Below the pieces are notes generated by a model. It had not been told where the DNA came from. It saw only the letters and a program-made list of their open reading frames with translations, and ran no database searches. Position numbers and translations under genes: made by a program. DNA of 64,000 nt from Morinoia aosen. Its lineage: Eukaryota; Arthropoda; Malacostraca; Amphipoda; Talitridae. Location: contig CM059568.1 in the NCBI GenBank assembly GCA_030386875.1, positions 26,034,120 through 26,098,119 of the forward strand, in the 5' to 3' direction. This document shows, piece by piece, positions 613 through 63,200 of this stretch (positions are counted from its first letter, which is position 1; each line of letters starts with the position of its first letter).

Positions 613-2180
613 GCATGTTGCCATGATGTTGCCTACATCATGATGGCGTGCACGGCATGTTGCCATGATGTTGACCACATCATGATGGCATGCACGGCAT
701 GTTGCCATGATGTTGCCTACATCATGATGGCGTGCAAAGCATGTTGCTATGATGTTGACCACGTCTTGCTGGCATGCACGGGATGTTGCCATGATGTTGC
801 CCACATCATGATGGCGTGCAAAGCATGTTGCCATGATGTTGCCCACATCATGATGGCGTGCACGGCATGTTGCTATGATGTTGACCACGTCTTGCTGGCA
901 TGCACGGGATGTTGCCATGATGTTGCCCACATCATGATGGCGTGCAAAGCATGTTGCCATGATGTTGCCCACATCATGATGGCGTGCAAAGCATGTTGCT
1001 ATGATGTTGACCACGTCTTGCTGGCATGCACGGCATGTTGCCATGATGTTGACCACATCATGATGGCATGCACGGCATGTTGCCATGATGTTGCCCACAT
1101 CATGATGGCGTGCAAAGCATGTTGCCATGATGTTGCCCACATCATGATGGCGTGCAAAGCATGTTGCTATGATGTTGACCACGTCTTGCTGGCATGCACG
1201 GCATGTTGCCATGATGTTGCCTACATCATGATGGCGTGCACGGCTTGTTGCCATGATGTTGACCACGTCATGCTGGCATGCACAGCATGTTGCCATGATG
1301 TTCACCACGTCATGACGGCATGCACGGCATGTTGCCATGATGTTGCCCACATCATGATGGCATGCACGGCATGTTGCCATGATGTTGCCCACATCATGAT
1401 GGCATGCACGGCATGCTGCTATGATGTTGACCACATCATGATGGCATGTACGGCATGTTGCCATGATGTTGCCCACATCATGATGGCATGCACGGCATGT
1501 TGCCATGATGTTGCCCACATCATGCTGGCATGCACAGCATGTTGCCATGATGTTCACCACGTCATGACGGCATGCACGGCATGTTGCCATGATGTTGCCC
1601 ACATCATGATGGCATGCACGGCATGTTGCCATGATGTTGCCCACATCATGCTGGCATGCACAGCATGTTGCCATGATGTTCACCACGTCATGACGGCATG
1701 CACGGCATGTTGCCATGATGTTGCCCACATCATGATGGCATGCACGGCATGTTGCCATGATGTTGCCCACATCATGATGGCATGCACGGCATGCTGCTAT
1801 GATGTTGACCACATCATGATGGCATGTACGGCATGTTGCCATGATGTTGCCCACATCATGATGGCATGCACGGCATGTTGCCATGATGTTGCCCACATCA
1901 TGATGGCATGCACGGCATGCTGCTATGATGTTGACCACATCATGATGGCATGTACGGCATGTTGCCATGATGTTGACCACGTCATGCTGGCATGCACAGC
2001 ATGTTGCCATGATGTTCACCACGTCATGACGGCATGCACGGCATGTTGCCATGATGTTGCCCACATCATGATGGCATGCACGGCATGTTGATATGATGTT
2101 GACCACATCATGATGGCATGCACGGCATGTTGCCATGATGTTGACCACATCATGATGGCGTGCAAAGCATGTTGCTATGA
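613..2180. repeat. 42-bp minisatellite, about 37 copies
   Basis: A 42-bp unit beginning GCATGTTGCCATGATGTT repeats head-to-tail about 37 times with no spacers. Variants (CGTCTTGCTGG, CACCACGTCATGACGG, TGCTATGATGTTGACC) recur in blocks of several units, so groups of units were copied together. Each unit holds an inverted repeat, CATGATGT...ACATCATG with a five-base loop, so single strands can fold. Because 42 is divisible by three the array is open on both strands for more than 500 codons (457-2091 plus, 550-2148 minus). Those frames are repeat by-products: they have no non-repeat domain and no obvious gene context. Confidence 0.95.
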
Positions 2181-14051: not shown

Positions 14052-14063
14052 AGCTTGGATTTT
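14052..14063. repeat. left copy of a 12-bp direct repeat flanking the Penelope array
   Basis: AGCTTGGATTTT sits directly outside the left end of the four-copy array and recurs at 24546-24557 directly outside the right end. It is the best candidate for a target-site duplication. The first four bases of the right copy also match the element's own sequence, so the unambiguous duplication is about 8-12 bp. Confidence 0.75.
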
Positions 14064-14136
14064 ACGTATCAAATTAGGTTGTACGATACGACATAGCTTT
14101 AAAATGAAGGTAATAGCAAAGACTATCGATTTAAAA

Positions 14137-14192
14137 GACATTTTTGTAAAAAACGAGCGTTTCGACCACTAAGGTCATCATCAGCGAATGTC
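14137..14192 (-). ncRNA. hammerhead-ribozyme-like motif, array left end
   Basis: Read on the minus strand: CTGATGA (14178-14184), then GACC...GGTC as stem II, GAAA, and a three-pair stem III (ACG/CGT), with GACATT/AATGTC as an outer stem I. The stem III loop here is CT, where the other three copies have TT, which leaves the stem intact. An extra U between CTGATGA and stem II, and weak pairing next to the core in stem I, are imperfections. PLEs are known to carry hammerhead motifs. Confidence 0.6.
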
Positions 14193-14267
14193 TGAAAAAT
14201 ACACAGGAAATATACATTCATAAATTGAAGAAAAAATCACACAAAAAAATAATAACGGTAAAAAATT

Positions 14268-16787: not shown

Positions 16788-16838
16788 TTTTGTAAAAAAC
16801 GAACGTTTCGACCACTAAGGTCATCATCAGCGAATGTC
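16783..16838 (-). ncRNA. hammerhead-ribozyme-like motif between copies B and A
   Basis: Same fold as the other three motifs. It lies at the joint of the minus-strand tandem pair, 3' of copy B's stop and overlapping copy A's ATG at 16785-16787. If it cleaves at the expected position, the released downstream RNA would begin about 10 nt before that ATG (inference). Confidence 0.62.
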
Positions 16839-16913
16839 TGAAAAATACACAGGAAATATACATTCATAAATTGAAGAAAAAATCACACAAAAAAATAATA
16901 ACGGTAAAAAATT

Positions 16914-19250
16914 TTAAACAGAAGCTATTTTCAAAGGGTGGGACGACTGCATATCGTTTAGATCGGGTTTTAAGCGGCAAATGAAGAGGGATTCGATAAT
17001 ACGTAAATCAGTGACTGAGTTAGCAGAACCTAAGATGGAGAAGTCTTGCTGTAGAACGGGATATTTACACTGATCTGAATGAATTCGTATAGCTGAGTGA
17101 GGTGGCTTGCTTAGTGGGTTACCGGTTCTGAAACTCCTACCAATATGCTCAAATACTCTACATCTCAGTGCGCGTGTGGTAGAACCAACATACACAGACC
17201 CACACAGTGGGCAACAATATTTATACACGATAGAGGAGAGCATAGACATAGGTAGTTTATCCTTGAATGAAAACAGAGTACCAATTCTAAAATTGTTAAC
17301 TAATATAATCTGGAGGTCAACACACGTAAAATATTTCATTGTGAGAGAGCGTAATTCCTTCTGCAGCTTATCGGACTGAAAACCAAAGAACGGCATCGAC
17401 ACGTACAGTTTCTTTTTCTCTACTGTCGGCGGCATCGTCGCAGAATTACATTTGGTTTCTATCAGATGCCGAATACATTTATTAAGTAAATGAAGCGGAT
17501 AGCCATTGTTCAAAAAAAATTGTTTGAGAAATGCAAGCTCTTTATGCAGAGACAAATAAGTGGAACTAATTTCATATGCCCGGAACAATAACGTCTTGAT
17601 ACTATTGATTTTAAACCGTAATGGACAAAAACTAAAGAAACTTAGACCCATGCCAGTAAACGTATCTTTTCTATAAACAGAAGAGCAAAAGGTGTTATTT
17701 GTGCGCTGTACCAAACAATCTAAAAAAGGTAATTTATTGTTAGCCTCAGTTTCCATGGTGAACTTAATGCTAGCATGCTTTTTATTAAGGTAGTCGAGAA
17801 ATAGACTGGCATGTGCTGGATCACGAAATAAAACGAAGGTATCATCAACGTACCTTCGATAGAAAACTGGCTTAAAAGGAACAGGGCACTCTGAGAGCCA
17901 ATTTTGTTCATGGTACGACATAAAAATATTAGCAAAGGTTGGCCCCAAGGGCAGCCCCATGCCTAGCCCCTCCGTTTGCTTGTAAAATTTACCATTGAAA
18001 AGAAAAAACGAATACCGAACTGCAAGGTCCAACAAAGTTTTGAAAACAGTTTTGCTCATATTATGTACAGTATTTTCTACATTAAACAAGTGCTGCAAAC
18101 AAATAACAATGGTTTCGGTCAATGGAATATTGGTGAATAAATTTTCAACATCAAATGAGGCCATGTACAGGGTGTCGGCATTGCGAACATCTGAGATTTC
18201 TTTAGCAAATGAATATGAATTAAGTACACTGTATTCGTTTGTAGCCAAAGGGTTCAGAATAGGCACTAAATATTTTGCAATTTTGTAAGAAGGAGTTTTA
18301 TATGCTGCAAATATTGGTCTCAGTTGAAATTTTGTGGCAAAGTCGGCCTTATGCACCTTAGGTAGCCCGTATAGAATTCCAGGACCAGAACCACTGACGT
18401 ACAGATTATTATATACTGCTTGAGAGATAACAGAAGAATTACAAAGTTTCCTAAGGAAATTATTGATTTTATCTTCAACCCGTAGCACATAATTATGAAT
18501 AGGGTCGACAATTTCTTGAAATTTACTGCGATCGGATATAATTTTGAGCAATCCCTCTTGATACCGCGCCCTGTCCAGTAAGACAACCCCCCTACCCTTG
18601 TCTGGTTTTGTCACAACTACATCCTTGTTCCTAGCCAACGATTTCAGAAGAGTAATATCTTGCTTTCCAAATATTGCAGAAAAAATTTTATATGATTTAA
18701 AATTGTAATAATACTTAAGAGACAGTGCTTTCAGCTCTTTAGTAAAATCAGTTAGGTTAGAGCATGGGTAATCCTTAAGGCTAATAGCTAGTTTTTCAAA
18801 AGCAAGGAAATATTTATAAAAGTTCAATTTGTACACAGGGAGAGCAAAATCAAGACCAAAGGCTAGGAGGAACTTAAGCCTAGACGATAAAATAATAGAA
18901 CTAAAATTGAATATTACAGAGTTTGGATCACATGGCTCCAGATCATTATAAATTCCGAGATCTCGAAGCTTACGACGGTGAACAGTTTTTGTACGAGCTG
19001 AGAACTCACGGAGGATCTGAGCTACATTGCGCTCAATTAGGATGATCAGAAAACCAGAGAAAAGTTGCACACAAGAAGTCTTACAGCATTCCGCCTCACT
19101 GGTCAGCTTAGCCACTGTTCGCTTCTTAGAGTTGATCTCATGGGACAGCAGCTTTGCTTGCCATGCTTTGTAGAACTGAGAGGTGTCTTTTGTCTTTTGT
19201 CTTTTAAATCGAATGTCTTTTAAATCGATAGTCTTTGCTATTACCTTCAT
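16914..19250 (-). CDS. Penelope-like RT/GIY-YIG ORF, copy B (5'-truncated, chimeric N-terminus)
   Basis: Same RT and GIY-YIG protein as copy A from the TSQFYKAWQ segment onward, with all catalytic motifs present. Homology to the other copies stops at 19186, so the first 80-odd residues and the upstream leader are missing. The frame stays open across the inversion joint, so the first 28 codons (starting MKVIAKTIDLKD) come from antisense of copy C's leader plus filler DNA. A private change replaces Asp with Val shortly after motif A (TETIVIC). RT and nuclease could still be made if a start codon is used, but the lost N-terminal region probably impairs function. Confidence 0.88.
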   Translation of the reverse strand: MKVIAKTIDLKDIRFKRQKTKDTSQFYKAWQAKLLSHEINSKKRTVAKLTSEAECCKTSCVQLFSGFLIILIERNVAQILREFSARTKTVHRRKLRDLGIYNDLEPCDPNSVIFNFSSIILSSRLKFLLAFGLDFALPVYKLNFYKYFLAFEKLAISLKDYPCSNLTDFTKELKALSLKYYYNFKSYKIFSAIFGKQDITLLKSLARNKDVVVTKPDKGRGVVLLDRARYQEGLLKIISDRSKFQEIVDPIHNYVLRVEDKINNFLRKLCNSSVISQAVYNNLYVSGSGPGILYGLPKVHKADFATKFQLRPIFAAYKTPSYKIAKYLVPILNPLATNEYSVLNSYSFAKEISDVRNADTLYMASFDVENLFTNIPLTETIVICLQHLFNVENTVHNMSKTVFKTLLDLAVRYSFFLFNGKFYKQTEGLGMGLPLGPTFANIFMSYHEQNWLSECPVPFKPVFYRRYVDDTFVLFRDPAHASLFLDYLNKKHASIKFTMETEANNKLPFLDCLVQRTNNTFCSSVYRKDTFTGMGLSFFSFCPLRFKINSIKTLLFRAYEISSTYLSLHKELAFLKQFFLNNGYPLHLLNKCIRHLIETKCNSATMPPTVEKKKLYVSMPFFGFQSDKLQKELRSLTMKYFTCVDLQIILVNNFRIGTLFSFKDKLPMSMLSSIVYKYCCPLCGSVYVGSTTRALRCRVFEHIGRSFRTGNPLSKPPHSAIRIHSDQCKYPVLQQDFSILGSANSVTDLRIIESLFICRLKPDLNDMQSSHPLKIASV
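19187..19211. repeat. filler DNA at the inversion joint
   Basis: Between truncated copy B and the start of copy C lies a short segment of repeated GTCTTTT units. It ends in TTTTAAATCG, which resembles the adjacent copy C leader. It looks copied from that leader by slippage. Confidence 0.7.
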
Positions 19251-21730
19251 TTTAAAGCTGTCGTATCGTACAACCTAATTTGATACGTAATATTCGCGAG
19301 TGCTACGGTGAAGACGCTGTTCGATCATACCGGTTGTATGAAAATTGTTCAAAAAGACTTGAAAAAGCAAAATTAGACCTATCTTTCCTCATTAAATGCA
19401 AAGTTTATAATGTGATACCAAAGTTTCTTCGCTTCAAACTGTACAAGAGGAGCCTGCACACCTCTCAGTTCTACAAAGCATGGCAAGCAAAGCTGCTGTC
19501 CCATGAGATCAACTCTAAGAAGCGAACAGTGGCTAAGCTGACCAGTGAGGCGGAATGCTGTAAGACTTCTTGTGTGCAACTTTTCTCTGGTTTTCTGATC
19601 ATCCTAATTGAGCGCAATGTAGCTCAGATCCTCCGTGAGTTCTCAGCTCGTACAAAAACTGTTCACCGTCGTAAGCTTCGAGATCTCGGAATTTATAATG
19701 ATCTGGAGCCATGTGATCCAAACTCTGTAATATTCAATTTTAGTTCTATTATTTTATCGTCTAGGCTTAAGTTCCTCCTAGCCTTTGGTCTTGATTTTGC
19801 TCTCCCTGTGTACAAATTGAACTTTTATAAATATTTCCTTGCTTTTGAAAAACTAGCTATTAGCCTTAAGGATTACCCATGCTCTAACCTAACTGATTTT
19901 ACTAAAGAGCTGAAAGCACTGTCTCTTAAGTATTATTACAATTTTAAATCATATAAAATTTCTTCTGCAATATTTGGAAAGCAAGATATTACTCTTCTGA
20001 AATCGTTGGCTAGGAACAAGGATGTAGTTGTGACAAAACCAGACAAGGGTAGGGGGGTTGTCTTACTGGACAGGGCGCGGTATCAAGAGGGATTGCTCAA
20101 AATTATATCCGATCGCAGTAAATTTCAAGAAATTGTCGACCCTATTCATAATTATGTGCTACGGGTTGAAGATAAAATCAATAATTTCCTTAGGAAACTT
20201 TGTAATTCTTCTGTTATCTCTCAAGCAGTATATAATAATCTGTACGTCAGTGGTTCCGGTCCTGGAATTCTATACGGGCTACCTAAGGTGCATAAGGCCG
20301 ACTTTGCCACAAAATTTCAACTGAGACCAATATTTGCAGCATATAAAACTCCTTCTTACAAAATTGCAAAATATTTAGTGCCTATTCTGAACCCTTTGGC
20401 TACAAACGAATACAGTGTACTTAATTCATATTCATTTGCTAAAGAAATCTCAGATGTTCGCAATGCCGACACCCTGTACATGGCCTCATTTGATGTTGAA
20501 AATTTATTCACCAATATTCCATTGACCGAAACCATTGATATTTGTTTGCAGCACTTGTTTAATGTAGAAAATACTGTACATAATATGAGCAAAACTGTTT
20601 TCAAAACTTTGTTGGACCTTGCAGTTCGGTATTCGTTTTTTCTTTTCAATGGTAAATTTTACAAGCAAACGGAGGGGCTAGGCATGGGGCTGCCCTTGGG
20701 GCCAACCTTTGCTAATATTTTTATGTCGTACCATGAACAAAATTGGCTCTCAGAGTGCCCTGTTCCTTTTAAGCCAGTTTTCTATCGAAGGTACGTTGAT
20801 GATACCTTCGTTTTATTTCGTGATCCAGCACATGCCAGTCTATTTCTCGACTACCTTAATAAAAAGCATGCTAGCATTAAGTTCACCATGGAAACTGAGG
20901 CTAACAATAAATTACCTTTTTTAGATTGTTTGGTACAGCGCACAAATAACACCTTTTGCTCTTCTGTTTATAGAAAAGATACGTTTACTGGCATGGGTCT
21001 AAGTTTCTTTAGTTTTTGTCCATTACGGTTTAAAATCAATAGTATCAAGACGTTATTGTTCCGGGCATATGAAATTAGTTCCACTTATTTGTCTCTGCAT
21101 AAAGAGCTTGCATTTCTCAAACAATTTTTTTTGAACAATGGCTATCCGCTTCATTTACTTAATAAATGTATTCGGCATCTGATAGAAACCAAATGTAATT
21201 CTGCGACGATGCCGCCGACAGTAGAGAAAAAGAAACTGTACGTGTCGATGCCATTCTTTGGTTTTCAGTCCGATAAGCTGCAGAAGGAATTACGCTCTCT
21301 CACAATGAAATATTTTACGTGTGTTGACCTCCAGATTATATTAGTTAACAATTTTAGAATTGGTACTCTGTTTTCATTCAAGGATAAACTACCTATGTCT
21401 ATGCTCTCCTCTATCGTGTATAAATATTGTTGCCCACTGTGTGGGTCTGTGTATGTTGGTTCTACCACACGCGCACTGAGATGTAGAGTATTTGAGCATA
21501 TTGGTAGGAGTTTCAGAACCGGTAACCCACTAAGCAAGCCACCTCACTCAGCTATACGAATTCATTCAGATCAGTGTAAATATCCCGTTCTACAGCAAGA
21601 CTTCTCCATCTTAGGTTCTGCTAACTCAGTCACTGATTTACGTATTATCGAATCCCTCTTCATTTGCCGCTTAAAACCCGATCTAAACGATATGCAGTCG
21701 TCCCACCCTTTGAAAATAGCTTCTGTTTAA
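19212..21730 (+). CDS. Penelope-like RT/GIY-YIG ORF, copy C (2-bp deletion near the start)
   Basis: Copy C begins at AATGTC, the outer strand of the hammerhead-like motif, so its own upstream half of that motif is absent. Relative to copies A and D it lacks two bases at about 19259 (AAAGCTGTCG instead of AAAGCTATGTCG). Translation from the usual ATG therefore stops after about 20 codons. The rest is open from 19256 to 21730 and keeps YVDD, CCPLC, VYVGS and the IIESLF Glu. A private Phe-to-Ser change lies near KISSAIF. Expression would need an internal or non-ATG start; the first candidate near the consensus frame is a TTG at 19280. Confidence 0.88.
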
Positions 21731-21805
21731 AATTTTTTACCGTTATTATTTTTTTGTGTGATTTTTTCTTCAATTTATGAATGTATATTTCCTGTGTATT
21801 TTTCA

Positions 21806-21861
21806 GACATTCGCTGATGATGACCTTAGTGGTCGAAACGTTCGTTTTTTACAAAAATGTC
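21806..21861 (+). ncRNA. hammerhead-ribozyme-like motif between copies C and D
   Basis: GACATT, two bases, CTGATGA, a stem II GACC/GGTC with UUAGU loop, GAAA, ACG-TT-CGT stem III, then a U-rich linker and AATGTC closing stem I. It sits at the plus-strand tandem joint. The ATG of copy D (21857-21859) is inside the closing strand. Confidence 0.62.
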
Positions 21862-24376
21862 TTTTAAATCGATAGTCTTTGCTATTACCTTCATTTTAAA
21901 GCTATGTCGTATCGTACAACCTAATTTGATACGTAATATTCGCGAGTGCTACGGTGAAGACGCTGTTCGATCATACCGGTTGTATGAAAATTGTTCAAAA
22001 AGACTTGAAAAAGCAAAATTAGACCTATCTTTCCTCATTAAATGCAAAGTTTATAATGTGATACCAAAGTTTCTTCGCTTCAAACTGTACAAGAGGAGCC
22101 TGCACACCTCTCAGTTCTACAAAGCATGGCAAGCAAAGCTGCTGTCCCATGAGATCAACTCTAAGAAGCGAACAGTGGCTAAGCTGACCAGTGAGGCGGG
22201 ATGCTGTAAGACTTCTTGTGTGCAACTTTTCTCTGGTTTTCTGATCATCCTAATTGAGCGCAATGTAGCTCAGATCCTCCGTGAGTTCTCAGCTCGTACA
22301 AAAACTGTTCACCGTCGTAAGCTTCGAGATCTCGGAATTTATAATGATCTGGAGCCATGTGATCCAAACTCTGTAATATTCAATTTTAGTTCTATTATTT
22401 TATCGTCTAGGCTTAAGTTCCTCCTAGCCTTTGGTCTTGATTTTGCTCTCCCTGTGTACAAATTGAACTTTTATAAATATTTCCTTGCTTTTGAAAAACT
22501 AGCTATTAGCCTTAAGGATTACCCATGCTCTAACCTAACTGATTTTACTAAAGAGCTGAAAGCACTGTCTCTTAAGTATTATTACAATTTTAAATCATAT
22601 AAAATTTTTTCTGCAATATTTGGAAAGCAAGATATTACTCTTCTGAAATCGTTGGCTAGGAACAAGGATGTAGTTGTGACAAAACCAGACAAGGGTAGGG
22701 GGGTTGTCTTACTGGACAGGGCGCGGTATCAAGAGGGATTGCTCAAAATTATATCCGATCGCAGTAAATTTCAAGAAATTGTCGACCCTATTCATAATTA
22801 TGTGCTACGGGTTGAAGATAAAATCAATAATTTCCTTAGGAAACTTTGTAATTCTTCTGTTATCTCTCAAGCAGTATATAATAATCTGTACGTCAGTGGT
22901 TCCGGTCCTGGAATTCTATACGGGCTACCTAAGGTGCATAAGGCCGACTTTGCCACAAAATTTCAACTGAGACCAATATTTGCAGCATATAAAACTCCTT
23001 CTTACAAAATTGCAAAATATTTAGTGCCTATTCTGAACCCTTTGGCTACAAACGAATACAGTGTACTTAATTCATATTCATTTGCTAAAGAAATCTCAGA
23101 TGTTCGCAATGCCGACACCCTGTACATGGCCTCATTTGATGTTGAAAATTTATTCACCAATATTCCATTGACCGAAACCATTGATATTTGTTTGCAGCAC
23201 TTGTTTAATGTAGAAAATACTGTACATAATATGAGCAAAACTGTTTTCAAAACTTTGTTGGACCTTGCAGTTCGGTATTCGTTTTTTCTTTTCAATGGTA
23301 AATTTTACAAGCAAACGGAGGGGCTAGGCATGGGGCTGCCCTTGGGGCCAACCTTTGCTAATATTTTTATGTCGTACCATGAACAAAATTGGCTCTCAGA
23401 GTGCCCTGTTCCTTTTAAGCCAGTTTTCTATCGAAGGTACGTTGATGATACCTTCGTTTTATTTCGTGATCCAGCACATGCCAGTCTATTTCTCGACTAC
23501 CTTAATAAAAAGCATGCTAGCATTAAGTTCACCATGGAAACTGAGGCTAACAATAAATTACCTTTTTTAGATTGTTTGGTACAGCGCACAAATAACACCT
23601 TTTGCTCTTCTGTTTATAGAAAAGATACGTTTACTGGCATGGGTCTAAGTTTCTTTAGTTTTTGTCCATTACGGTTTAAAATCAATAGTATCAAGACGTT
23701 ATTGTTCCGGGCATATGAAATTAGTTCCACTTATTTGTCTCTGCATAAAGAGCTTGCATTTCTCAAACAATTTTTTTTGAACAATGGCTATCCGCTTCAT
23801 TTACTTAATAAATGTATTCGGCATCTGATAGAAACCAAATGTAATTCTGCGACGATGCCGCCGACAGTAGAGAAAAAGAAACTGTACGTGTCGATGCCGT
23901 TCTTTGGTTTTCAGTCCGATAAGCTGCAGAAGGAATTACGCTCTCTCACAATGAAATATTTTACGTGTGTTGACCTCCAGATTATATTAGTTAACAATTT
24001 TAGAATTGGTACTCTGTTTTCATTCAAGGATAAACTACCTATGTCTATGCTCTCCTCTATCGTGTATAAATATTGTTGCCCACTGTGTGGGTCTGTGTAT
24101 GTTGGTTCTACCACACGCGCACTGAGATGTAGAGTATTTGAGCATATTGGTAGGAGTTTCAGAACCGGTAACCCACTAAGCAAGCCACCTCACTCAGCTA
24201 TACGAATTCATTCAGATCAGTGTAAATATCCCGTTCTACAGCAAGACTTCTCCATCTTAGGTTCTGCTAACTCAGTCACTGATTTACGTATTATCGAATC
24301 CCTCTTCATTTGCCGCTTAAAACCCGATCTAAACGATATGCAGTCGTCCCACCCTTTGAAAATAGCTTCTGTTTAA
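21857..24376 (+). CDS. Penelope-like RT/GIY-YIG ORF, copy D (intact, 839 aa)
   Basis: Full-length PLE protein with the same start and domain order as copy A: RT with motif A Asp about 428 and YVDD at 528-531, then CCPLC at 740-744, YVG at 748-750 and catalytic-type Glu about 814. One private replacement (Glu to Gly, about residue 115) and at least one silent change near 23899 separate it from copy A. Its leader is complete and its ATG is 10 nt beyond the predicted ribozyme cleavage point. With copy A it is one of two units here that look competent to encode an active enzyme. Confidence 0.93.
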   Translation: MSFKSIVFAITFILKLCRIVQPNLIRNIRECYGEDAVRSYRLYENCSKRLEKAKLDLSFLIKCKVYNVIPKFLRFKLYKRSLHTSQFYKAWQAKLLSHEINSKKRTVAKLTSEAGCCKTSCVQLFSGFLIILIERNVAQILREFSARTKTVHRRKLRDLGIYNDLEPCDPNSVIFNFSSIILSSRLKFLLAFGLDFALPVYKLNFYKYFLAFEKLAISLKDYPCSNLTDFTKELKALSLKYYYNFKSYKIFSAIFGKQDITLLKSLARNKDVVVTKPDKGRGVVLLDRARYQEGLLKIISDRSKFQEIVDPIHNYVLRVEDKINNFLRKLCNSSVISQAVYNNLYVSGSGPGILYGLPKVHKADFATKFQLRPIFAAYKTPSYKIAKYLVPILNPLATNEYSVLNSYSFAKEISDVRNADTLYMASFDVENLFTNIPLTETIDICLQHLFNVENTVHNMSKTVFKTLLDLAVRYSFFLFNGKFYKQTEGLGMGLPLGPTFANIFMSYHEQNWLSECPVPFKPVFYRRYVDDTFVLFRDPAHASLFLDYLNKKHASIKFTMETEANNKLPFLDCLVQRTNNTFCSSVYRKDTFTGMGLSFFSFCPLRFKINSIKTLLFRAYEISSTYLSLHKELAFLKQFFLNNGYPLHLLNKCIRHLIETKCNSATMPPTVEKKKLYVSMPFFGFQSDKLQKELRSLTMKYFTCVDLQIILVNNFRIGTLFSFKDKLPMSMLSSIVYKYCCPLCGSVYVGSTTRALRCRVFEHIGRSFRTGNPLSKPPHSAIRIHSDQCKYPVLQQDFSILGSANSVTDLRIIESLFICRLKPDLNDMQSSHPLKIASV

Positions 24377-24451
24377 AATTTTTTACCGTTATTATTTTTT
24401 TGTGTGATTTTTTCTTCAATTTATGAATGTATATTTCCTGTGTATTTTTCA

Positions 24452-24507
24452 GACATTCGCTGATGATGACCTTAGTGGTCGAAACGTTCGTTTTTTACAA
24501 AAATGTC
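24452..24507 (+). ncRNA. hammerhead-ribozyme-like motif, array right end
   Basis: Same sequence as the motif at 21806-21861. It is followed by about 38 bases of leader (to TTTTAAAGCT) before the flank, so copy D ends in a partial repeat of the unit start, as expected for a PLE pseudo-LTR layout. Confidence 0.6.
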
Positions 24508-24545
24508 TTTTAAATCGATAGTCTTTGCTATTACCTTCATTTTAA

Positions 24546-24557
24546 AGCTTGGATTTT
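24546..24557. repeat. right copy of the 12-bp direct repeat flanking the Penelope array
   Basis: AGCTTGGATTTT, identical to 14052-14063. See the left copy for the ambiguity over its first four bases. Confidence 0.75.
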
Positions 24558-34227: not shown

Positions 34228-36197
34228 GGCAGCTGCACACCTGACGCTGGCACCACTGTGCCGGCCTGGCAACTCCTGACTGTGAGGCAGCTTCATCTCA
34301 ATACACACCTGAAGCTGGCACCGCTGTGCCGGCCTGGCAACGCCTGACTGTGAGGCAGCTTCATCTCACTACACACCTGAAGCTGGCACCGCTGTGCCGG
34401 CCTGGCAACGCCTGACTGTGAGGCAGCTTCATCTCACTACACACCTGAAGCTGGCACCGCTGTGCCGGCCTGGCAACTCCTGACTGTGAGGCAGCTTCAT
34501 CTCACTACACACCCGAAGCTGGCACCGCTGTGCCGGCCTGGCAACGCCTGACTGTGAGGCAGCTTCATCTCACTACACACCTGAAGCTGGCACCGCTGTG
34601 CCGGCCTGGCAACTCCTGACTGTGAGGCAGCTTCATCTCACTACACACCTGAAGCTGGCACCGCTGTGCTGGCCTGGCAACTCCTGACTGTGAGGCAGCT
34701 TCATCTCACTACACACCTGAAGCTGGCACCGCTGTGCCGGCCAGGCAACGCCTGACTGTGAGGCAGCTTCATCTCACTACACACCTGAAGCTGGCACCGC
34801 TGTGCCGGCCTGGCAACTCCTGACTGTGAGGCAGCTTCATCTCACTACACACCTGAAGCTGGCACCGCTGTGCCGGCCTGGCAACGCCTGACTGTGAGGC
34901 AGCTTCATCTCACTACACACCTGAAGCTGGCACCGCTGTGCCGGCCTGGCAACTCCTGACTGTGAGGCAGCTTCATCTCACTACACACCTGAAGCTGGCA
35001 CCGCTGTGCTGGCCTGGCAACTCCTGACTGTGAGGCAGCTTCATCTCACTACACACTTGAAGCTGGCACCGCTGTGCCGGCCTGGCAACGCCTGACTGTG
35101 AGGCAGCTTCATCTCACTACACACCTGAAGCTGGCACCGCTGAGCCGGCCTGGCAACGCCTGACTGTGAGGCAGCTTCATCTCACTACACACCTGAAGCT
35201 GGCACCGCTGTGCCGGCCTGGCAACTCCTGACTGTGAGGCAGCTTCATCTCACTACACACCTGAAGCTGGCACCGCTGTGCTGGCCTGGCAACTCCTGAC
35301 TGTGAGTCAGCTTCATCTCACTACACACCTGAAGCTGGCACCGCTGTGCCGGCCAGGCAATGCCTGACTGTGAGGCAGCTTCATCTCACTACACACCTGA
35401 AGCTGGCACCGCTGTGCCGGCCTGGCAACTCCTGACTGTGAGGCAGCTTCATCTCACTACACACCTGAAGCTGGCACCGCTGTGCCGGCCTGGCAACGCC
35501 TGACTGTGAGGCAGCTTCATCTCACTACACACCTGAAGCTGGCACCGCTGTGCCGGCCTGGCAACTCCTGACTGTGAGGCAGCTTCATCTCACTACACAC
35601 CTGAAGCTGGCACCGCTGTGCTGGCCTGGCAACTCCTGACTGTGAGGCAGCTTCATCTCACTACACACCTGAAGCTGGCACCGCTGTGCCGGCCTGGCAA
35701 CGCCTGACTGTGAGTCAGCTTCATCTCACCACACACCTGAAGCTGGCACCGCTGTGCCGGCCTGGCAACTCCTGACTGTGAGGCAGCTTCATCTCACTAC
35801 ACACCTGAAGCTGGCACCGCTGTGCCGGCCTGGCAACTCCTGACTGTGAGGCAGCTTCATCTCACCACACACCTGACGCTGGCACCGCTGTGCCGGCCTG
35901 GCAACTCCTGACTGTGAGGCAGCTTCATCTCACCACACACCTGAAGCTGGCACCGCTGTGCCGGCCTGGCAACTCCTGACTGTGAGGCAGCTTCATCTCA
36001 CTACACACCTGAAGCTGCACCCCTGTGCCGGCCTGGCAACTCCTGACTGTGAGGCAGCTTCATCTCACCACACACCTGACGCTGGCACCGCTGTGCCGGC
36101 CTGGCAACTCCTGACTGTGAGGTAGCTTCATCTCACCACACACCTGACGCTGGCACCGCTGTGCCGGCCTGGCAACTCCTGACTGTGAGGTAGCTTT
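34228..36197. repeat. 68-bp satellite, about 29 copies
   Basis: A 68-bp unit (CACCTGAAGCTGGCACC through TTCATCTCACTACA) is repeated about 29 times. Variants AACGCC/AACTCC, GCCGGCC/GCTGGCC and a CCGGCCAGG form recur at regular intervals, which suggests blocks of units amplified together. Each unit holds two inverted repeats: CAGCTTCA...TGAAGCTG with a 14-base loop, and GGCAC-CGCT-GTGCC. The last copies (after 35860) show more ACCTGACGCTGG and CACCACACAC variants, so the edge is diverging. Confidence 0.95.
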
Positions 36198-36512
36198 ATT
36201 TCAAAGAAGAAATTCCCCGGTCTTCTCTGCTTGCCGTAACCACCATGAAGCGGTCTATTTCATTATCATTAAAGGGCTCACCCCGGCCGTATCACGGTCG
36301 AATGTTCTGCGCATTTCCCTCCAAAATTCCAGCCTTTTGATTAACTTGAGAAATTGGGGGAAAACCTAAAGAGTCTTGCACGTTGAGGTGAGAGTGAAGC
36401 ACTGAAAGAAAGAAAAAGAAAGAAAGAAAAAATGTTTATTTCCAAGTTGCCACATGAGATACATGCCAACATATTGGCTTTTAAAAGTTTATTAATATAG
36501 GACATCCTAAAA
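36198..36512. other. unannotated DNA with a GAAA microsatellite
   Basis: Contains a GAAAGAAAGAAAAAG-type simple repeat at about 36404-36431. No gene seen. Confidence 0.6.
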
Positions 36513-47369: not shown

Positions 47370-48262
47370 GGAGCTGTTGTCTCAATGCGTTCATTTCTTG
47401 ATGTTTGCACTGCTGTTGTGTTGGTCACAGTGCGTTCATGCTTCGATTTTTGAACTGCTGTTGTGTTCGTCTTAAAGTGCGTTAATGCCTCAATGTTTGC
47501 ACTGCAGTTGTGTTTGTTTAACAGTGCGTTAATGCCTCGATGTTTTCACTGCAGCTGTCGTGTGTGTCGCCCAATACGTTTAGGCCTCGATGTTTTCACT
47601 GCAGCTGTCGTGCGTGTCGCCCAATACGTTTAGGCCTCGATGTTTTCACTGCAGCTGTCGTGCGTGTCGCCCAATACGTTTAGGCCTCGATGTTTTCACT
47701 GCAGCTGTCGTGCGTGTCGCCCAATACGTTTAGTCCTCGATGTTTTCACTGCTGCTGTCGTGCGTGTCGCCCAATGCGTGTAGGCCTCGATGTTTTCACT
47801 GCAGCTGTCGTGCGTGTCACCCAATACGTTTAGGCCTCGATGTTTTCACTGCAGCTGTCGTGCGGGTCGCCCAATGCGTTTAGGCCTCGATGTTTTCACT
47901 GCAGCTGTCGTGCGTGTCGCCCAATACGTTTAGGCCTCGATGTTTTCACTGCTGCTGTCGTGCGTGTCGCCCAATGCGTTTAGGCCTCGATGTTTTCACT
48001 GCAGCTGTCGTGCGTGTCGCCCAATACGTTTAGGCTTCGATGTTTTCACTGCAGCTGTCGTGCGTGTCGCCCAATACGTTTAGGCCTCGATGTTTTCACT
48101 GCTGCTGTCGTGCGTGTCGCCCAATGCGTTTAGGCCTCGATGTTTTCACTGCAGCTGTCGTGCGTGTCGCCCAATACGTTTAGGCTTCGATGTTTTCACT
48201 GCAGCTGTCGTGCGTGTCGCCCAATACGTATAGGCCTCGATGTTTGCCTTGCTACTGTTGTG
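47370..48262. repeat. 50-bp tandem array, about 17 copies, graded divergence
   Basis: From 47541 to about 48240 a 50-bp unit (TGTTTTCACTGCAGCTGTCG + TGCGTGTCGCCCAATACGTT + TAGGCCTCGA) repeats 14 times almost perfectly. To the left (47370-47540) three or so copies are recognisable but far more diverged, with small indels. The last unit at the right changes to TGTTTGCCTTGCTACTG. A homogenised centre with decayed edges is visible directly. Confidence 0.93.
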
Positions 48263-49692: not shown

Positions 49693-50002
49693 ATGGCGTA
49701 TTCTACAGTCAGCTGTCCTCCGTTCGACGTTGAAGTGGAAACAGTGAGTGAATTCTTAGAGCGCTGGAAAGTCCAAAGTGCAGACGCTCTTCATAAAGCA
49801 GGAAATAATGGCGGTAAAAAAGCTAGTATTTTAATTAAAGCTCTGCCTGTAAACATAATCACTGATCTACAACGAAGAATTAAACCTACGTTACTCACTG
49901 AGGCTACATATGAGGAACTTGAAGAAAAATTACCACAGCAATTTGAAATCAAAAAATCCATCGTCAGTGCATCGGTTACATTTCTAAATAGAAAACAAGG
50001 GT
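49693..50002 (+). pseudogene. gag-like N-terminal fragment of the gypsy element
   Basis: From the ATG at 49693 (MAYSTVSCPPFDVEV) the frame codes about 100 residues with an aromatic/acidic pattern (VSEFLERWKVQS, KKASILIKALP, ATYEELEEKLPQQF) typical of the capsid-like part of short Ty3/gypsy gags in arthropods. Upstream codons in the same frame (from 49606) run back into the LTR end and are not part of gag. The zinc knuckle and protease expected afterward are deleted. Confidence 0.65.
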
Positions 50003-51371
50003 GTACCTCTCAACTGTTCCGCTCGAATTCAAAGATGGGCTCTCAGACTTTCACAGTTTGACTATGTTTTCAACTATTCGAAAGGTAAATGTAACGTAAA
50101 TAGCGATTGTCTCAGTAGGCTGCCACTACCCACGACTGTAAAAGAGCTAGAACCGTACGAAATGATTTTTGCTGTGAACTCTCTTGATAAAACTCCTGTC
50201 ACGTGTGAAAATATAAGAACTCATACTGATATGGATAACGAACTATGCCAACTTAAACAATACATAAAGTTTGGCATGCCTCCTAAACCTAATCCCAATT
50301 TGTCTAAATTTAAGAACCTGCTACCTCAGATGACCATCATGAAAGGTTGTATACTTTATAAAGAACGGGTTTTTATTCCCAAGTCATTGCGTAGTTTAGT
50401 CCTTGAAACATTTCATGATGGACATCCTGGCATTTGTGGCATGAAATCGTTGGCCAGATCTGTTATTTGGTTTCCCGGAATGGACAAAACTATTGAAGAC
50501 ATCGTAAAATGTTGTCCCCAATGTCAATTAAATCGAGCATAACCTAAGTCTAGAAATGTAGAATGGCCCACTCCTTCTCGTCCTTTTGAACGCATTCATG
50601 TCGATCACTTTTTCTACGAGAATAAAATTGTTTTCATTGCTGTAGATGCATTATCTAAATATATTGAATGTGAAGTGGTACCATCCACGAGTGTGTCAGA
50701 TACTGTCGATGCGTTGGGGATGATTTTCAGCAGAAACGGGTTGTGTGATGTGCTCGTAAGTGACAATGCTTCTAACTTTTCATCTCAAGACTTTAAAGAT
50801 TTTCTTATTTCCAACGGCATTGAGCACCTCACACCTCCCCAGCAAGCAATGGTCAAGCTGAGAGGGGGTGAGAGTCATTAAAGACTTGTTGAAAAAACTC
50901 TCTTCTTCTGAATCGTTCAAATCCCGTCTATCATAAGCATTATTTCAATCGCATTGTATTCCGCATAGTGTTACAAAAATTGCTCCCTCTGTAGCGCTGA
51001 ACAATCGTAAATTTGTTACCTCCAAAGATAGAGTTCATCCTAAATTTTCTGTGTCCAGGTCTAAGCCTATGTATGTAACTCAATTTGATGTCGGTGATCA
51101 TGTTCTCGCTCTGAATGTAAGAAATGGTCCCAAGTGGTTGAAGGGAATTATTGTTAGTAAAGTTGCTGTTAATATCTTTCATGTTCAAATACTAGCATTA
51201 AATGTAATCTGGAAGAGACATTCAAATCAGCTGTTGCACAGTAGTTTGGGATCTACCGGGAGTGGGGCAGCAGAGACTCCTGCCTTTCAGCCGGTTAGCT
51301 GCTCACCTGGGCAAAATGAACCTCGTAGATCAGGTAGAATAACTAAACCTGTAATACGAATAGGTTGTTGA
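50003..51371 (+). pseudogene. pol fragment: RNase H end plus integrase, with stop and frameshift
   Basis: Begins with RIQRWALRLSQFDYVFNY and CLSRLP (end of the RT/RNase H region). Then comes the integrase HHCC finger (FHDGHPGICG ... CCPQCQ) up to an in-frame TAA at 50540-50542. The same frame continues with HVDHFF (first catalytic Asp) and VSDNASNF (second Asp). A frameshift near 50840 separates the Glu motif (SNGQAERG). The C-terminal piece 51051-51371 has FDVGDHVLAL, PKWLKG and KRHSNQLL, followed by RRSGR, the usual end of gypsy integrase. The enzyme cannot be made from this copy. Confidence 0.85.
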
Positions 51372-56492: not shown

Positions 56493-57828
56493 TAATAGTA
56501 CCCATAATTTATGAACTATGTTTATACTAGTGAAGCAGTGAAACTCATATCGTAGCGATCACCTGCACTTTCAATCATACCAGTCAGAAGCGTCGATAGT
56601 TACAGATGTTACAGTTACTGATGTTACAGATGTTACAGTTACTGATGTTACAGATGTTACAGTTACTGAAGTTACAGGTATTACAGTTACAGATAGTTAC
56701 TGACAATCTATTCCGGGATGTCATATTCAGAAATGACTTCAATATTTTTCATCCACGTTCATTTCAGAAGAGTAACCTGACCAAAAAAAGAGAAAATGAA
56801 CTATTTTTTCCATATGAAATGTTCCGAGAAAGAACGTAAGCCTTTTGTTCACAAGTTTCATTGCTAAAAAGGTCTCAATAAATCAGTTTGAATTAAGTTT
56901 GGTGAGATAAGGTTAATTTGAGTTAGTTCAAGTCATGTGATGTCCGTGCGCAAAATATACAACGTAATTCATCAAGGGCCACTACATTGGTGCTAAGCAG
57001 GGCCCGTGGCTGCCAAAAGGCCCCAAGCCTTTGGAAAACTCTGAAATAGATATACTGGGAGGTAGAAAACCTTGCAAAAAATCACAGTAGACTTGAAAAC
57101 CCTCTTGAACGACTTTTTCATGAGCGAGTAACTATTCAAATATACATCGTTCAACATTCAACAGAAACATTCAACTGTTAGGAAACAGTCCCCACAGACG
57201 CAGTTGATGCAAACTCCTTTAATTACCCGACTTTCACCAAGTACTGGAATTAAATGTCGAAAATGTACGCCTGCCACGTAAACTTCAGGTCTTGTACTCT
57301 GAGGTTTCCCAGATCCGAAAAAAACACTCATGGATCATCAGCAATAAGCTATGAAGTGTCGACTTGCTTTCCACCAAGATCCAGTCCTGTCTTGATGTCA
57401 TAGCCGTTTTTCAATGTTTACCGATGGCAACTGATCATCAAGGTAAACAAAATTGCCATAATTTGCAGAGTTGACCAAAATGAGGTGAGAAATATTCTAA
57501 AATACCAGCATTAACTGATCGATATCTCGAAAAAGAAGATTTAAACTTCGTGAAATTTATGGAAGAGGTTTTTATTTAATTATCAACTACGAAGTCTTGT
57601 ATTATTTATTTCCGAGCACCCTACAGGTTCGTGAATTAACGAAAATTATGAGGAGTGAGCCTTCTACGAATCGCCGGGCATCTTTTATGACGAGTTGCTT
57701 TTGTTATTATGCTTATGTGGAAAAATATTCGAGCGGCAATTTTTACTGATATTATTCCATCTCAACCTATCTAACCTCAACCTAACCTAAATAAGCTAGC
57801 CAAATCCAACCACATCTAACCAGCCTAG
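56493..57828. other. unannotated DNA including a short GTTACA tandem repeat
   Basis: About 56601-56699 is a 24-bp period repeat (GTTACTGATGTTACAGAT core, four copies). The rest has no supported gene. I looked for a piggyBac catalytic domain upstream of the EAEP frame and did not find one. Confidence 0.5.
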
Positions 57829-60201
57829 CCTGAGCCGGCGCGTCAACCGGAGCTCGCTCGCGAGCCAGAGGTCGAGCCTGAGGCCGAGCCCGAGGCCGAG
57901 CCCGAGGCCGAGCCCGAGGCCGAGCCCGAGGCCGAGCCCGAGGCCGAGCCCGAGGCCGAGCCCGAGGCCGAGCCCGAGGCCGAGCCCGAGGCCGAGCCCG
58001 AGGCCGAGCCCGAGGCCGAGCCCGAGGCCGAGCCCGAGGCCGAGCCCGAGGCCGAGCCCGAGGCCGAGCCCGAGGCCGAGCCCGAGGCCGAGCCCGAGGC
58101 CGAGCCCGAGGCCGAGCCCGAGGCCGAGCCCGAGGCCGAGCCCGAGGCCGAGCCCGAGGCCGAGCCCGAGGCCGAGCCCGAGGCCGAGCCCGAGGCCGAG
58201 CCCGAGGCCGAGCCCGAGGCCGAGCCCGAGGCCGAGCCCGAGGCCGAGCCCGAGGCCGAGCCCGAGGCCGAGCCCGAGGCCGAGCCCGAGGCCGAGCCCG
58301 AGGCCGAGCCCGAGGCCGAGCCCGAGGCCGAGCCCGAGGCCGAGCCCGAGGCCGAGCCCGAGGCCGAGCCCGAGGCCGAGCCCGAGGCCGAGCCCGAGGC
58401 CGAGCCCGAGGCCGAGCCCGAGGCCGAGCCCGAGGCCGAGCCCGAGGCCGAGCCCGAGGCCGAGCCCGAGGCCGAGCCCGAGGCCGAGCCCGAGGCCGAG
58501 CCCGAGGCCGAGCCCGAGGCCGAGCCCGAGGCCGAGCCCGAGGCCGAGCCCGAGGCCGAGCCCGAGGCCGAGCCCGAGGCCGAGCCCGAGGCCGAGCCCG
58601 AGGCCGAGCCCGAGGCCGAGCCCGAGGCCGAGCCCGAGGCCGAGCCCGAGGCCGAGCCCGAGGCCGAGCCCGAGGCCGAGCCCGAGGCCGAGCCCGAGGC
58701 CGAGCCCGAGGCCGAGCCCGAGGCCGAGCCCGAGGCCGAGCCCGAGGCCGAGCCCGAGGCCGAGCCCGAGGCCGAGCCCGAGGCCGAGCCCGAGGCCGAG
58801 CCCGAGGCCGAGCCCGAGGCCGAGCCCGAGGCCGAGCCCGAGGCCGAGCCCGAGGCCGAGCCCGAGGCCGAGCCCGAGGCCGAGCCCGAGGCCGAGCCCG
58901 AGGCCGAGCCCGAGGCCGAGCCCGAGGCCGAGCCCGAGGCCGAGCCCGAGGCCGAGCCCGAGGCCGAGCCCGAGGCCGAGCCCGAGGCCGAGCCCGAGGC
59001 CGAGCCCGAGGCCGAGCCCGAGGCCGAGCCCGAGGCCGAGCCCGAGGCCGAGCCCGAGGCCGAGCCCGAGGCCGAGCCCGAGGCCGAGCCCGAGGCCGAG
59101 CCCGAGGCCGAGCCCGAGGCCGAGCCCGAGGCCGAGCCCGAGGCCGAGCCCGAGGCCGAGCCCGAGGCCGAGCCCGAGGCCGAGCCCGAGGCCGAGCCCG
59201 AGGCCGAGCCCGAGGCCGAGCCCGAGGCCGAGCCCGAGGCCGAGCCCGAGGCCGAGCCCGAGGCCGAGCCCGAGGCCGAGCCCGAGGCCGAGCCCGAGGC
59301 CGAGCCCGAGGCCGAGCCCGAGGCCGAGCCCGAGGCCGAGCCCGAGGCCGAGCCCGAGGCCGAGCCCGAGGCCGAGCCTGAGGCCGAGCCTGAGGCCGAG
59401 CCTGAGGCCGAGCCTGAGGCCGAGCCTGAGGCCGAGCCTGAGGCCGAGCCTGAGGCCGAGCCTGAGGCCGAGCCTGAGGCCGAGCCTGAGGCCGAGCCTG
59501 AGGCCGAGCCTGAGGCCGAGCCTGAGGCCGAGCCTGAGGCCGAGCCTGAGGCCGAGCCTGAGGCCGAGCCTGAGGCCGAGCCTGAGGCCGAGCCTGAGGC
59601 CGAGCCTGAGGCCGAGCCTGAGGCCGAGCCTGAGGCCGAGCCTGAGGCCGAGCCTGAGGCCGAGCCTGAGGCCGAGCCTGAGGCCGAGCCTGAGGCCGAG
59701 CCTGAGGCCGAGCCTGAGGCCGAGCCTGAGGCCGAGCCTGAGGCCGAGCCTGAGGCCGAGCCTGAGGCCGAGCCAGAGGCCGAGCCTGAGGCCGAGCCAG
59801 AGGCCGAGCCTGAGGCCGAGCCAGAGGCCGAGCCTGAGGCCGAGCCTGAGGCCGAGCCTGAGGCCGAGCCCGAGGCCGAGCCTGAGGCCGAGCCTGAGGC
59901 CGAGCCAGAGGCCGAGCCAGAGGCCGAGCCTGAGGCCGAGCCTGAGGCCGAGTCAGAGGCCGAGCCTTCTAGTGTAGACCAGAGAGAGAAGGAAAAAAGA
60001 CTCACTCATGCTCTGGTTTCTGTGCCATATTCAAACTTAAGATATGATGGCATTGACAATTTCCCGGAATACAATGAACCAAGAGTGAGGTGCAGGTTCT
60101 GTCATACAGGATTCACTTTTGTCAAGTGTATGAAATGCAACATAAATTTGTGTTCCTCTATGAAGGAACGTAATTGCTTTACTGACTTCCACTTCAAATA
60201 A
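57829..60201 (+). CDS. EAEP-repeat frame fused to a piggyBac-type C-terminal cysteine-rich domain (no start codon)
   Basis: One frame is open for 790 codons from just after a TAG (57826-57828) to a TAA at 60199-60201. It has no ATG before or within the repeat. About 700 residues are a (Glu-Ala-Glu-Pro)n repeat. A charged linker REKEKR follows, then [17 protein letters not shown] and a cysteine cluster C-X2-C-X8-C-X2-C-X4-C-X7-C-X4-H ending NCFTDFHFK. That order (RYDG...FP, cysteine cluster, NCF..FH end) is the C-terminal cysteine-rich domain of piggyBac transposases and PGBD4-like derived proteins, which binds transposon-end DNA. The DDD catalytic domain is not upstream within the window. CATCTAAC and CCTAG before 57829 could be a branch site and 3' splice site, so this may be a last exon. 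Otherwise it is a fossil 3' end with an expanded linker. Confidence 0.6.
57868..59972. repeat. 12-bp tandem array, about 175 copies
   Basis: GAGGCCGAGCCC is repeated without any frame-breaking indel for about 2.1 kb. The proline codon is CCC in a homogeneous block to about 59377, then CCT to about 59770, then a mix of CCT, CCA and CCC. The minus strand is also fully open as a (Ser-Ala-Ser-Gly)n frame of 720 codons, which joins no known domain and is treated as spurious. Confidence 0.97.
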
Positions 60202-63200
60202 CTCCTATTTGAAAAATGCTGGATTGAATCTATACGAATAATTTTTTTTTGGTTGATTATCTGTGTTTGTTTGAAAACTATTTCATATGATTCATATTTA
60301 ATGCAAGATACCATTTCTGCAGTTGAGTACCTGTTATTTAAAAGGGATTTTGTACTTAATGGCAGAAATAGTACTTTCCTATTAATATGAATACTTTGAA
60401 ATGGTTTTTCGACAGACACAAATGATCAAGCTAAAAAATAATTTTTTTCATATAGATTTCATCGAGCATTTTCCAAATTAGAATAGTTTCCATCGTTTGT
60501 AATGTATAATTGAATAATATAGCGGTAGTTAGTTCCTAAAAATTACTGTATACTTTAATTTCCTTTGTCTAATCCTGTTTACTAAAGGAAAAATTATTAC
60601 TTATTGCTTCATAATGTAGTAAATAAGCTACATTCTGTATTTTCTTTTTTATGACGCATAAAATGCTTATCATGAAGTGGGTTATTTCAGCTTTAAATAA
60701 CCAAAAAATGAACTTAAATATTTTTTTCCATTTGAAATATTATTTCTGATACTTCTGAAAATAATAGCATGGTTTTGCTACTCTGGACCTGACTTTAGCC
60801 TGCTCCATCATATTAAGCGATTTAAACAAAGGAAATATTTATCACAGTAATTCCTTCTCTCCCAATGCCAGCCATGTGCGAATTTTTATTTTATCACTGG
60901 AGCAGCACAGTTTTATTAGGTATGGCTGCTTCATACAATTTTTTCGTATTAATTCTTCGTATTACATGATCGTCAAAAATTCAGTTTAAACAAAAGTCAG
61001 ACACGGTTCAGCAAACAAAACAAAAATGTTCAAACTTGGACGCCTTGACTTTGAAAACTACCTCCGCTACAATGAATTTCTTCCGAAAGCTTCAGAGCTC
61101 TACACGATGATTGCGTTTCCCTCATTTAGTCGTAATTAGAAAAAACAAGCAATCTATGATCCTAAAATGTTTTTATTAAAAATTGGTTTGTGTTCACACA
61201 TTTTGTGATTTTCTATTACTTATACACAATGTGACAGAAGTCTCATAGAGATTATAAGGTAAAACATATTTACCTCGATAAGATTCTGTTCGAAACTCCA
61301 GGCATCTTCGAACCAAAAGTGTGACGTCAAAGCTATTTTTCCGTATCTTGGAGCGGCCTGGAGATTTAGGAGACATGTTCGCCACCCACAACGTGTCGCT
61401 CTTCTTTGATAGTTGAGAACAAGCTTGAAGACCAAAATAGGAAAACAAACATTCTTGAATTACTTACCGAGGAATTTCAGTGAAGTGAATGAATTTATAA
61501 TTCATCAACATATTTTTCCACAATAATTTCGTCCTACTTGGCAACGGATATAAAATTCCTCAAAAAGTTTAGTTTTATACCTAGTAGCCAATTAGTAACA
61601 GTTGTCGTTTAAAAATGTCTAAAAATATTTAGATTTAAATGGAAAACTCCTGCGTCAGCAACATTGTTGACAGCTGGCGTAGTGCGTGTGACGAAGCCTG
61701 TGGCCAGAAAATCTTAACTGTAGGTTGCTCAAGCACTGTACATGAAATATTCTGTGTACATTCGAGCCCAAATAAGTTACCAAGACCCAACTCAAGAATT
61801 AACGTTCACGAGACTCAATGCGTTCCCAAAACCTAAGTGGAAATCGTTTCAAAGTGCTTCAACTCGGTGGTCGCGATGTGAGTCGCCGGTACACGTGTAC
61901 ACGCAGGAAATTTTCGTAGTGTTGCTGGCCAATCAGTAGTCACCAACTAAACTTTTATAAATACTTCATCGAAAATATGATCCAGTTAGTGCTTGATTTT
62001 TTTTCAAAATTGCTTGCTTGAATTGACTTTCAATTTGAAAATGACAGAGTATGACGTGCACAGTTGAGAGCATCATTCTCGTAATACATGTTCGTTTTAT
62101 GTTCTAAATATCAAACATCAACGGCTACGCCAGCCTCGTCAAATATGAAGGGTTAAACTTTTCTGGGGTTAAACAGTCAGTTTAACTTACCACGGTCAAC
62201 GAGTTAAAGCTCATTGTATTTGAGATGCAATGTCACCCAAGAGACAACAATCTAATATATAATGTTTTCTCCACCACGTAGGATAGATACTTGATATGAT
62301 GTTTCGTTAATTACCGTATTCAAGTAAATTGATAAAATGTGTGTAAAAATACATTTGTTTAAGTTATCAAACTTATGTAGAAGCGACCTAACACGCAAGC
62401 AATCGAACAGTGATGGAGATATATCAAAAACTATACTTGCAAAGTTTGGCCGTTTCGTTTTCAGTTTTCTATTTCGTTACAAAATGTTAGCGCTCAAAAA
62501 TAGCAAACGGACCGCATCCTAAAACTAATCAAAATGACAGTGCAACTCTTGAAGGTTACCGATGACTGCATCGACTATGAGGCAGGACTGAGCCCCGACT
62601 ACCGATGTCAAACTTCAGATTGGAGGACAGAGAAGTTATAGGATACTAGTTATCAAGTATATTCTAGTCCTCGCATGTCAACTTTTCGAGCGTGGTGCGG
62701 CATCTAGCGTTGTTTTTTCGTCGTAATATCTACATCCTCTAAATACTACCGTTGAAACATTGAAACGTGTTTTCAAAACTGTAAATTTACCATTAAAATA
62801 ATAGATCTCGCAAAGCAAAACTCTAAAACCAGGATTTAAAACATAACGTATAAGTTTGAATTTTCACAGCTTAAATTGTCAAATTTTCACCTTCAAACTA
62901 GAAAACGAAGCTTAATTTAATGCAACTGATATTGATTAACACTTCTATTAGTCTCAGGTTGGTTAGTGTTTACGTTGTCGATGCGACCTTTTGCTGAAAT
63001 AAAGCTCTGCCAGAAAGGAGGGTACCCAACATATTTTCGAAGTACCTACCAACGTAAAAATTATGTTGTTTTCCCAGGCCTAAACTAATATGCTTTAACT
63101 TTAAATTTTCAAACAACCGAAAATTTTAAATTTCCATGATTTTGCTCATGACGTAGGGCAAGTTTAAATGTTCGCCTTCGTGCGACCATTTTGTCCAGAC

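Follow-up and report, generated by a model that had tools for sequence, protein, structure and literature searches.

The locus raises a simple question. Does an open reading frame of 790 amino acids, which crosses a 12-bp tandem array and runs into a piggyBac-type C-terminal domain, belong to a giant protein, or is it the by-product of a repeat that grew beside a dead transposon? The frame extends from stop to stop on the plus strand at positions 57829 to 60201 of a 64,000-bp stretch of the Morinoia aosen genome (hereafter the window; C13:26034120-26098119), and the genome searched comprised 1.99 Gb in 29 contigs. The reading that we prefer, with a probability of about 0.88, is that of a dead, 5'-truncated, old, and low-copy piggyBac copy whose linker codons probably seeded a private 12-bp minisatellite, and we infer that no protein is made from the frame. 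A fossil linker expansion was the alternative that the earlier note had set beside its own proposal of a new protein, and it proved to be the best fit. The parts of the locus are as follows.

57829 to 57867, plus strand: leader of the open frame, GC-rich, 13 residues, possibly degenerate repeat units, at the 5' edge of the array
57868 to 59967, plus strand: minisatellite of 175 units of 12 bp (GAGGCCGAGCCN), 81% GC
59956 to 59967, plus strand: last unit and proposed seed of the array, in alignment with the linker codons that encode RGRP in relatives and 1 nt longer than the family form
59968 to 60201, plus strand: remnant of the piggyBac linker and C-terminal cysteine-rich domain, including the stop codon, with linker indels of -1 and +4 compared with relatives
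60058 to 60060, plus strand: Asn for His at the first zinc ligand position (AAT where CAT, His, aligns)
60202 to 60746, plus strand: non-coding 3' remainder of this piggyBac element, containing an internal inverted repeat (ca. 60196 to 60484) common to other copies; the terminal repeat and TTAA are not recognisable

The array is highly regular, with 175.5 copies, 99% match, and 0% indels according to TRF, which bears out the earlier description of about 175 in-frame 12-base units leading without an indel into RYDG and a Cys/His tail. Each unit consists of two near-identical hexamers (GAGGCC and GAGCCN), and the 175 units comprise 125 of GAGGCCGAGCCC, 43 ending in CCT, five ending in CCA, and one each of GAGGTCGAGCCT and GAGGCCGAGTCA. 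An unbroken run of 124 identical units is followed by 33 CCT units, with no indels. Variation is greatest on the piggyBac side, and the identical run occupies the far side. A variant unit is also found at the 5' edge, together with the degenerate-looking leader. Directly upstream of the leader, positions 57760 to 57828 hold a degenerate AACCT/CCTAA-like stretch.

Genome-wide, the pure 36-mer had 122 exact occurrences, which is the yield of the 124-unit run, against 0 for the control, and among the matches listed (the first ca. 100) every place was this array. A two-unit pattern with up to two mismatches gave 174 forward and 0 reverse matches, the expectation from 175 units, with all the matches listed at this array; its backward control gave 173 matches, probably because the array, when two mismatches are allowed, resembles itself read backwards. 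Because this control is not clean, the exact 36-mer search is the sole clean uniqueness count. As far as these counts go, the array is private to this one locus in the 1.99-Gb genome.

The tail that follows has the motif CxxC-x8-CxxC-x4-C-x7-C-x4-H, with all six Cys and the final His kept and no stop, frameshift, or indel within the finger. Its homology to the ends of 564-amino-acid ORFs that also match PF13843 far exceeds chance expectation (47% identity and an E value of 4.1e-15), and identity to L014- and L016-type ORF tails was 44 to 51% (E values of 1.9e-15 for L014 and 4.1e-15 for L016). When nine piggyBac ORFs were searched against the window (tblastn, E value of 0.001), six matched it, in the tail only and at 40 to 51% identity, and the other three (L001, L007, and L008) had no match at this threshold. 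Used as a query against the genome, the 77-residue tail found at least 144 matches at an E value of ≤0.001 (150 of 223 candidates scored). A direct Pfam scan of the tail gave only zf-HIT (E value of 0.00095) and ZZ_ADA2 (E value of 0.36), both below cut-off; zf-HIT was accordingly rejected as the identity of the tail, and the best PDB match (E value of 1.6) was not decisive. The profile search recommended beforehand was not decisive as far as Pfam is concerned, and the piggyBac homology that it was meant to find came through the ORFs of the genome. By these comparisons, the piggyBac origin of the tail is established, an assignment that rests on relatives inside the same genome.

In domains of the PiggyMac type, the first Cys pair is preceded by a conserved His, with eight ligand positions in all, and such a His has been suggested also for PLE-wu and piggyBat (PMC8086355). 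The window tail keeps seven of the eight ligands of this domain type, the set being incomplete by the first His, replaced by Asn. What had been described as a seven-residue Cys/His cluster is piggyBac-type and in frame with the array, as claimed, but amounts to seven of eight ligand positions. For the comparison of ligands, 37 loci yielded 26 with an ORF of ≥250 amino acids and 18 distinct tails, of which 13 align correctly at the His column. All 13 have His there, 10 of them coming from ORFs of ≥500 amino acids. Of the tails outside the 13, L007 and L008 belong to another domain type with a gap at this column, and L015, L027, and L032, being unrelated frames or broken tails, were dropped; a chance His in the unrelated frame of L027 was not counted, and the tail proper of this locus (a 296-amino-acid fragment) has Arg at the position. 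Among the fossil copies, six of seven have His, and the seventh (L074) has Tyr.

The closest relatives of the window copy are at least seven old copies (on C1, C2 [twice], C4, C9, C12, and C22), with 69 to 81% DNA identity over direct pieces; this count is a lower bound, eight candidates having passed a first look. In four of them (L050, L051, L054, and L074), decayed catalytic remnants are found directly upstream of the tail, and in L051 one intron-free stretch corresponds to residues 139 to 551 of a 564-amino-acid relative. In L053, ca. 1.1 kb separates the catalytic remnant from the tail. L049 and L052 showed a match to the tail only, within 4.7 and 5.7 kb upstream, respectively, so the window copy is not alone in lacking the 5' part.

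In a blastn comparison with the seven relatives, none of their catalytic stretches matched the window. Eight of the 27 hits of the relatives to the window lay outside the piggyBac remnant; none of these touch catalytic sequence, and they resemble unrelated repeats in the flanks of the relatives. At the protein level, the window was absent among the 116 scored genome matches to PF13843 (DDE_Tnp_1_7; 116 of 2398 candidates). A permissive comparison (E values up to 1) turned up faint matches elsewhere than in the tail, the best with an E value of 0.077, which were taken as chance. An upstream DDE_Tnp_1_7 exon, postulated in the earlier note, thus found no counterpart in the window by protein or DNA comparison, and the remnants of the relatives adjoin the tail or lie ca. 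1.1 kb away. Genome-wide, the piggyBac catalytic domain has at least 116 matches, many in open frames of >550 amino acids and several with equal scores, and from these sequences recent activity of piggyBac elements in this genome seems possible.

Downstream, homology to the relatives continues past the stop codon and through the 3' part to ca. 60746. L051 carries an exact family end, ...GAGACAAAGGG-TTAA, and several copies carry a degenerate form of it that can still be recognised at up to 6 edits; no family end, terminal inverted repeat, or TTAA was found in the window within 6 edits. On the other side, the 1.2 kb 5' of the array (56700 to 57879) matched only itself in a genome-wide search that skips simple repeats and very common words. 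Given that catalytic sequence, family ends, and a second copy of the 5' flank were not found, we conclude that the window copy is both 5'-truncated and immobile. The flank beyond the element (60740 to 62500) appears to be ordinary repeat-rich DNA, judging by the 40 matches obtained when 40 of 1403 candidates were scored: besides the match to itself, two fell at ca. 60743 to 61168 and 37 at ca. 61849 to 62044.

Where, then, did the array come from? An Arg-Gly-Arg-Pro motif (KRGRP or RRGRP), which we take to resemble an AT-hook core, is present in the linker of 8 of the 13 tails (L016, L021, L023, L029, L033, L035, L037, and L038). We compared the last unit of the array with the linker codons of those five relatives in which the junction is present (L074, L051, L054, L050, and L049; L052 and L053 are without it). 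The true rotation was the best of 12 in all five. Of 5000 shuffled units, 37 were as good for L074, 4 for L051, 66 for L054, 19 for L050, and 436 for L049; the last is a weak match and not convincing alone, the relatives are not independent of each other, and the matching seed is short (ca. 12 nt). One alignment had the array masked and ends at 59968 by construction; it was a separate alignment that reached into the last unit.

These figures also bear on the best surviving alternative, an independent array, derived for example from a GC-rich hexamer repeat on the 5' side, that abuts the piggyBac remnant by chance or insertion, its likeness to RGRP being accidental. The division of the unit into two near-identical hexamers and the resemblance of the leader (57829 to 57867) to degenerate units would suit such an origin, as would the brevity of the seed match and the poor fit of L049. 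Against it, the last unit stands in register at the linker position in its correct rotation, no more than 66 of 5000 shuffles did as well in four of the five relatives, and the most varied units are on the piggyBac side. We consider an independent origin unlikely, although it keeps some weight. If the fossil reading is right, the last unit is probably the seed of the array. In that event, an old, low-copy piggyBac copy would have died and lost its 5' part, the linker DNA (the Arg-Gly-Arg-Pro codons in relatives) would have been duplicated in tandem, and the array would have grown to 175 units by slippage or unequal exchange, presumably after the death of the copy. Varied units near the piggyBac part and an identical run far from it are consistent with an array that grew outward from the seed and was recently homogenised, and the degenerate-looking 5' edge is a poor fit to simple growth away from the 3' end.

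The alternative that attracted attention to the locus is a real exon of a domesticated piggyBac host gene, encoding an acidic Glu-Ala-Glu-Pro rod of ca. 700 residues with a zinc-finger tail, with a catalytic or other 5' exon far upstream. In its favor, the 790-residue frame opens into an unbroken tail, and an AG dinucleotide precedes 57829 directly. The first Met of the frame is residue 768 of 790, within the C-terminal domain. However, openness by itself carries no information here. Five of the six frames of the array are open over 697 to 702 codons (one minus frame with a single stop), and even the sixth, in which the CCT units create 43 stops, is open for 499 codons. Since the main unit is stop-free in all frames and the period of 12 is a multiple of three, long open frames follow from the period and are evidence neither for a gene nor for the plus strand, and an open frame could join the tail by chance in two of the three plus frames. 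Another array of the window (609 to 2188; 42 bp, 37.6 copies) likewise has long open frames on opposite strands (493 and 526 codons), and its plus frame had no Pfam match at an E value of 0.01. The view that the plus strand is the one with real coding content thus draws no support from openness, two plus and three minus frames being open over 697 to 702 codons.

The history of the frame also argues against an exon. Compared with the Arg-Gly-Arg-Pro-Ser-Ser codons of relatives, the window sequence carries an additional base, followed shortly downstream by a 1-base deletion and a 4-base insertion (three linker indels in all). The deletion and the insertion together restore the frame, and the extra base puts the Glu-Ala-Glu-Pro frame one base off that of the transposase, whose ancestral frame across the array is the one with 43 stops. 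To this are added the loss of the first zinc ligand, the lack of any match to catalytic sequence in protein and DNA comparisons with the window, and the four relatives with intron-free catalytic remnants directly upstream of the tail.

Selection on the tail was compared with that on other copies. Compared with the consensus of the other copies, the tail has 15 changes, six of them synonymous (P = 0.08), and the chance of no stop among 15 changes is 0.57; in L049, a stop-bearing copy, 9 of 19 changes are synonymous (P = 0.011). Divergence is lower in the coding part of the window tail than in the 3' part (9.1% versus 16.0%; Fisher P = 0.036), which would favor an exon, but the same holds for L050 (P = 0.019) and L053 (P = 0.042). 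Thus, selection on the window tail is indistinguishable from that in broken copies. The unit variation, mostly synonymous, also speaks for an exon at first sight: in 48 of 50 variant units the sole change is at the third base of Pro, synonymous in the Glu-Ala-Glu-Pro frame. As the units are copied from one another, two or three events may account for the variants, and we gave this bias little weight. Altogether, we regard an exon as very improbable, and the new protein architecture proposed on its basis is not supported, given the period that explains its openness, the lost zinc-ligand His, and a frame one base off that of the transposase. Slightly less probable still is a young, lineage-specific expressed protein, in which the array would have been co-opted to form an acidic Glu-Ala-Glu-Pro rod attached to a zinc finger of piggyBac origin, the first ligand of the finger being dispensable or replaced. 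Least probable of all is a Ser-Ala-Ser-Gly or Pro-Gln/Arg-Ala-Arg repeat protein coded on the minus strand, where three frames are open (718 to 728 amino acids) for the same trivial reason as five of the six, and where a 107-amino-acid ORF over the tail had no Pfam match at an E value of 1.

The window contains other repeats. Arrays at 609 to 2188, 34236 to 36203, and 47527 to 48245 resemble the one studied here in being homogeneous, with 89 to 96% match and 0% indels, and differ in their longer units; the second of them is a 68-bp array of 29 copies with 96% match in a GC-rich stretch. Four near-identical ORFs at 14059 to 24549, in units of ca. 2.7 kb that are 99.8 to 99.9% alike, form two tandem pairs facing each other, and 14095 to 19186 and 24549 to 19458 make up a palindrome whose 5.1-kb arms are 99.9% identical. 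Both of the two ORFs scanned of these four contain RVT_1, and we assume from their appearance, with a GIY-YIG-like end, that they are Penelope-like. A retroelement integrase fragment (Integrase_H2C2) is found at 49988 to 50542.

For genome annotation, the locus is a warning that tandem repeats with a period divisible by three can look like a giant gene. For transposon biology, it is a small example of coding DNA turned into a tandem repeat, a minisatellite seemingly seeded by conserved transposase linker codons. A search of the open-access literature by titles and the starts of abstracts, which is weak evidence of absence, found no minisatellite derived from piggyBac linker codons. The array is a homogeneous, short-unit tandem repeat whose unit resembles the sequence of the transposon where the two meet, and from the sequence the locus seems to be a private TE-seeded minisatellite beside a fossil.

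The tail resembles the piggyBac C-terminal cysteine-rich domain, in its PiggyMac variant, in the order of six Cys and a final His, in the RYDG...FP before the finger, in the stop right after FHFK, and in its homology to the ends of piggyBac ORFs of the same genome; unlike that domain, it has Asn at the first ligand and an array in place of a short linker, and neither a catalytic domain nor ends were recognised. Tandem repeats derived from TEs are well known, and element ORFs are among the sources of satellites (PMC9659126). Like those repeats, the array adjoins, and was apparently seeded by, a transposon remnant. Unlike the ORF examples in section 2.2 of that review, which are retrotransposons, the source here would be the linker codons of a DNA-transposon transposase, with the resulting array at one locus.
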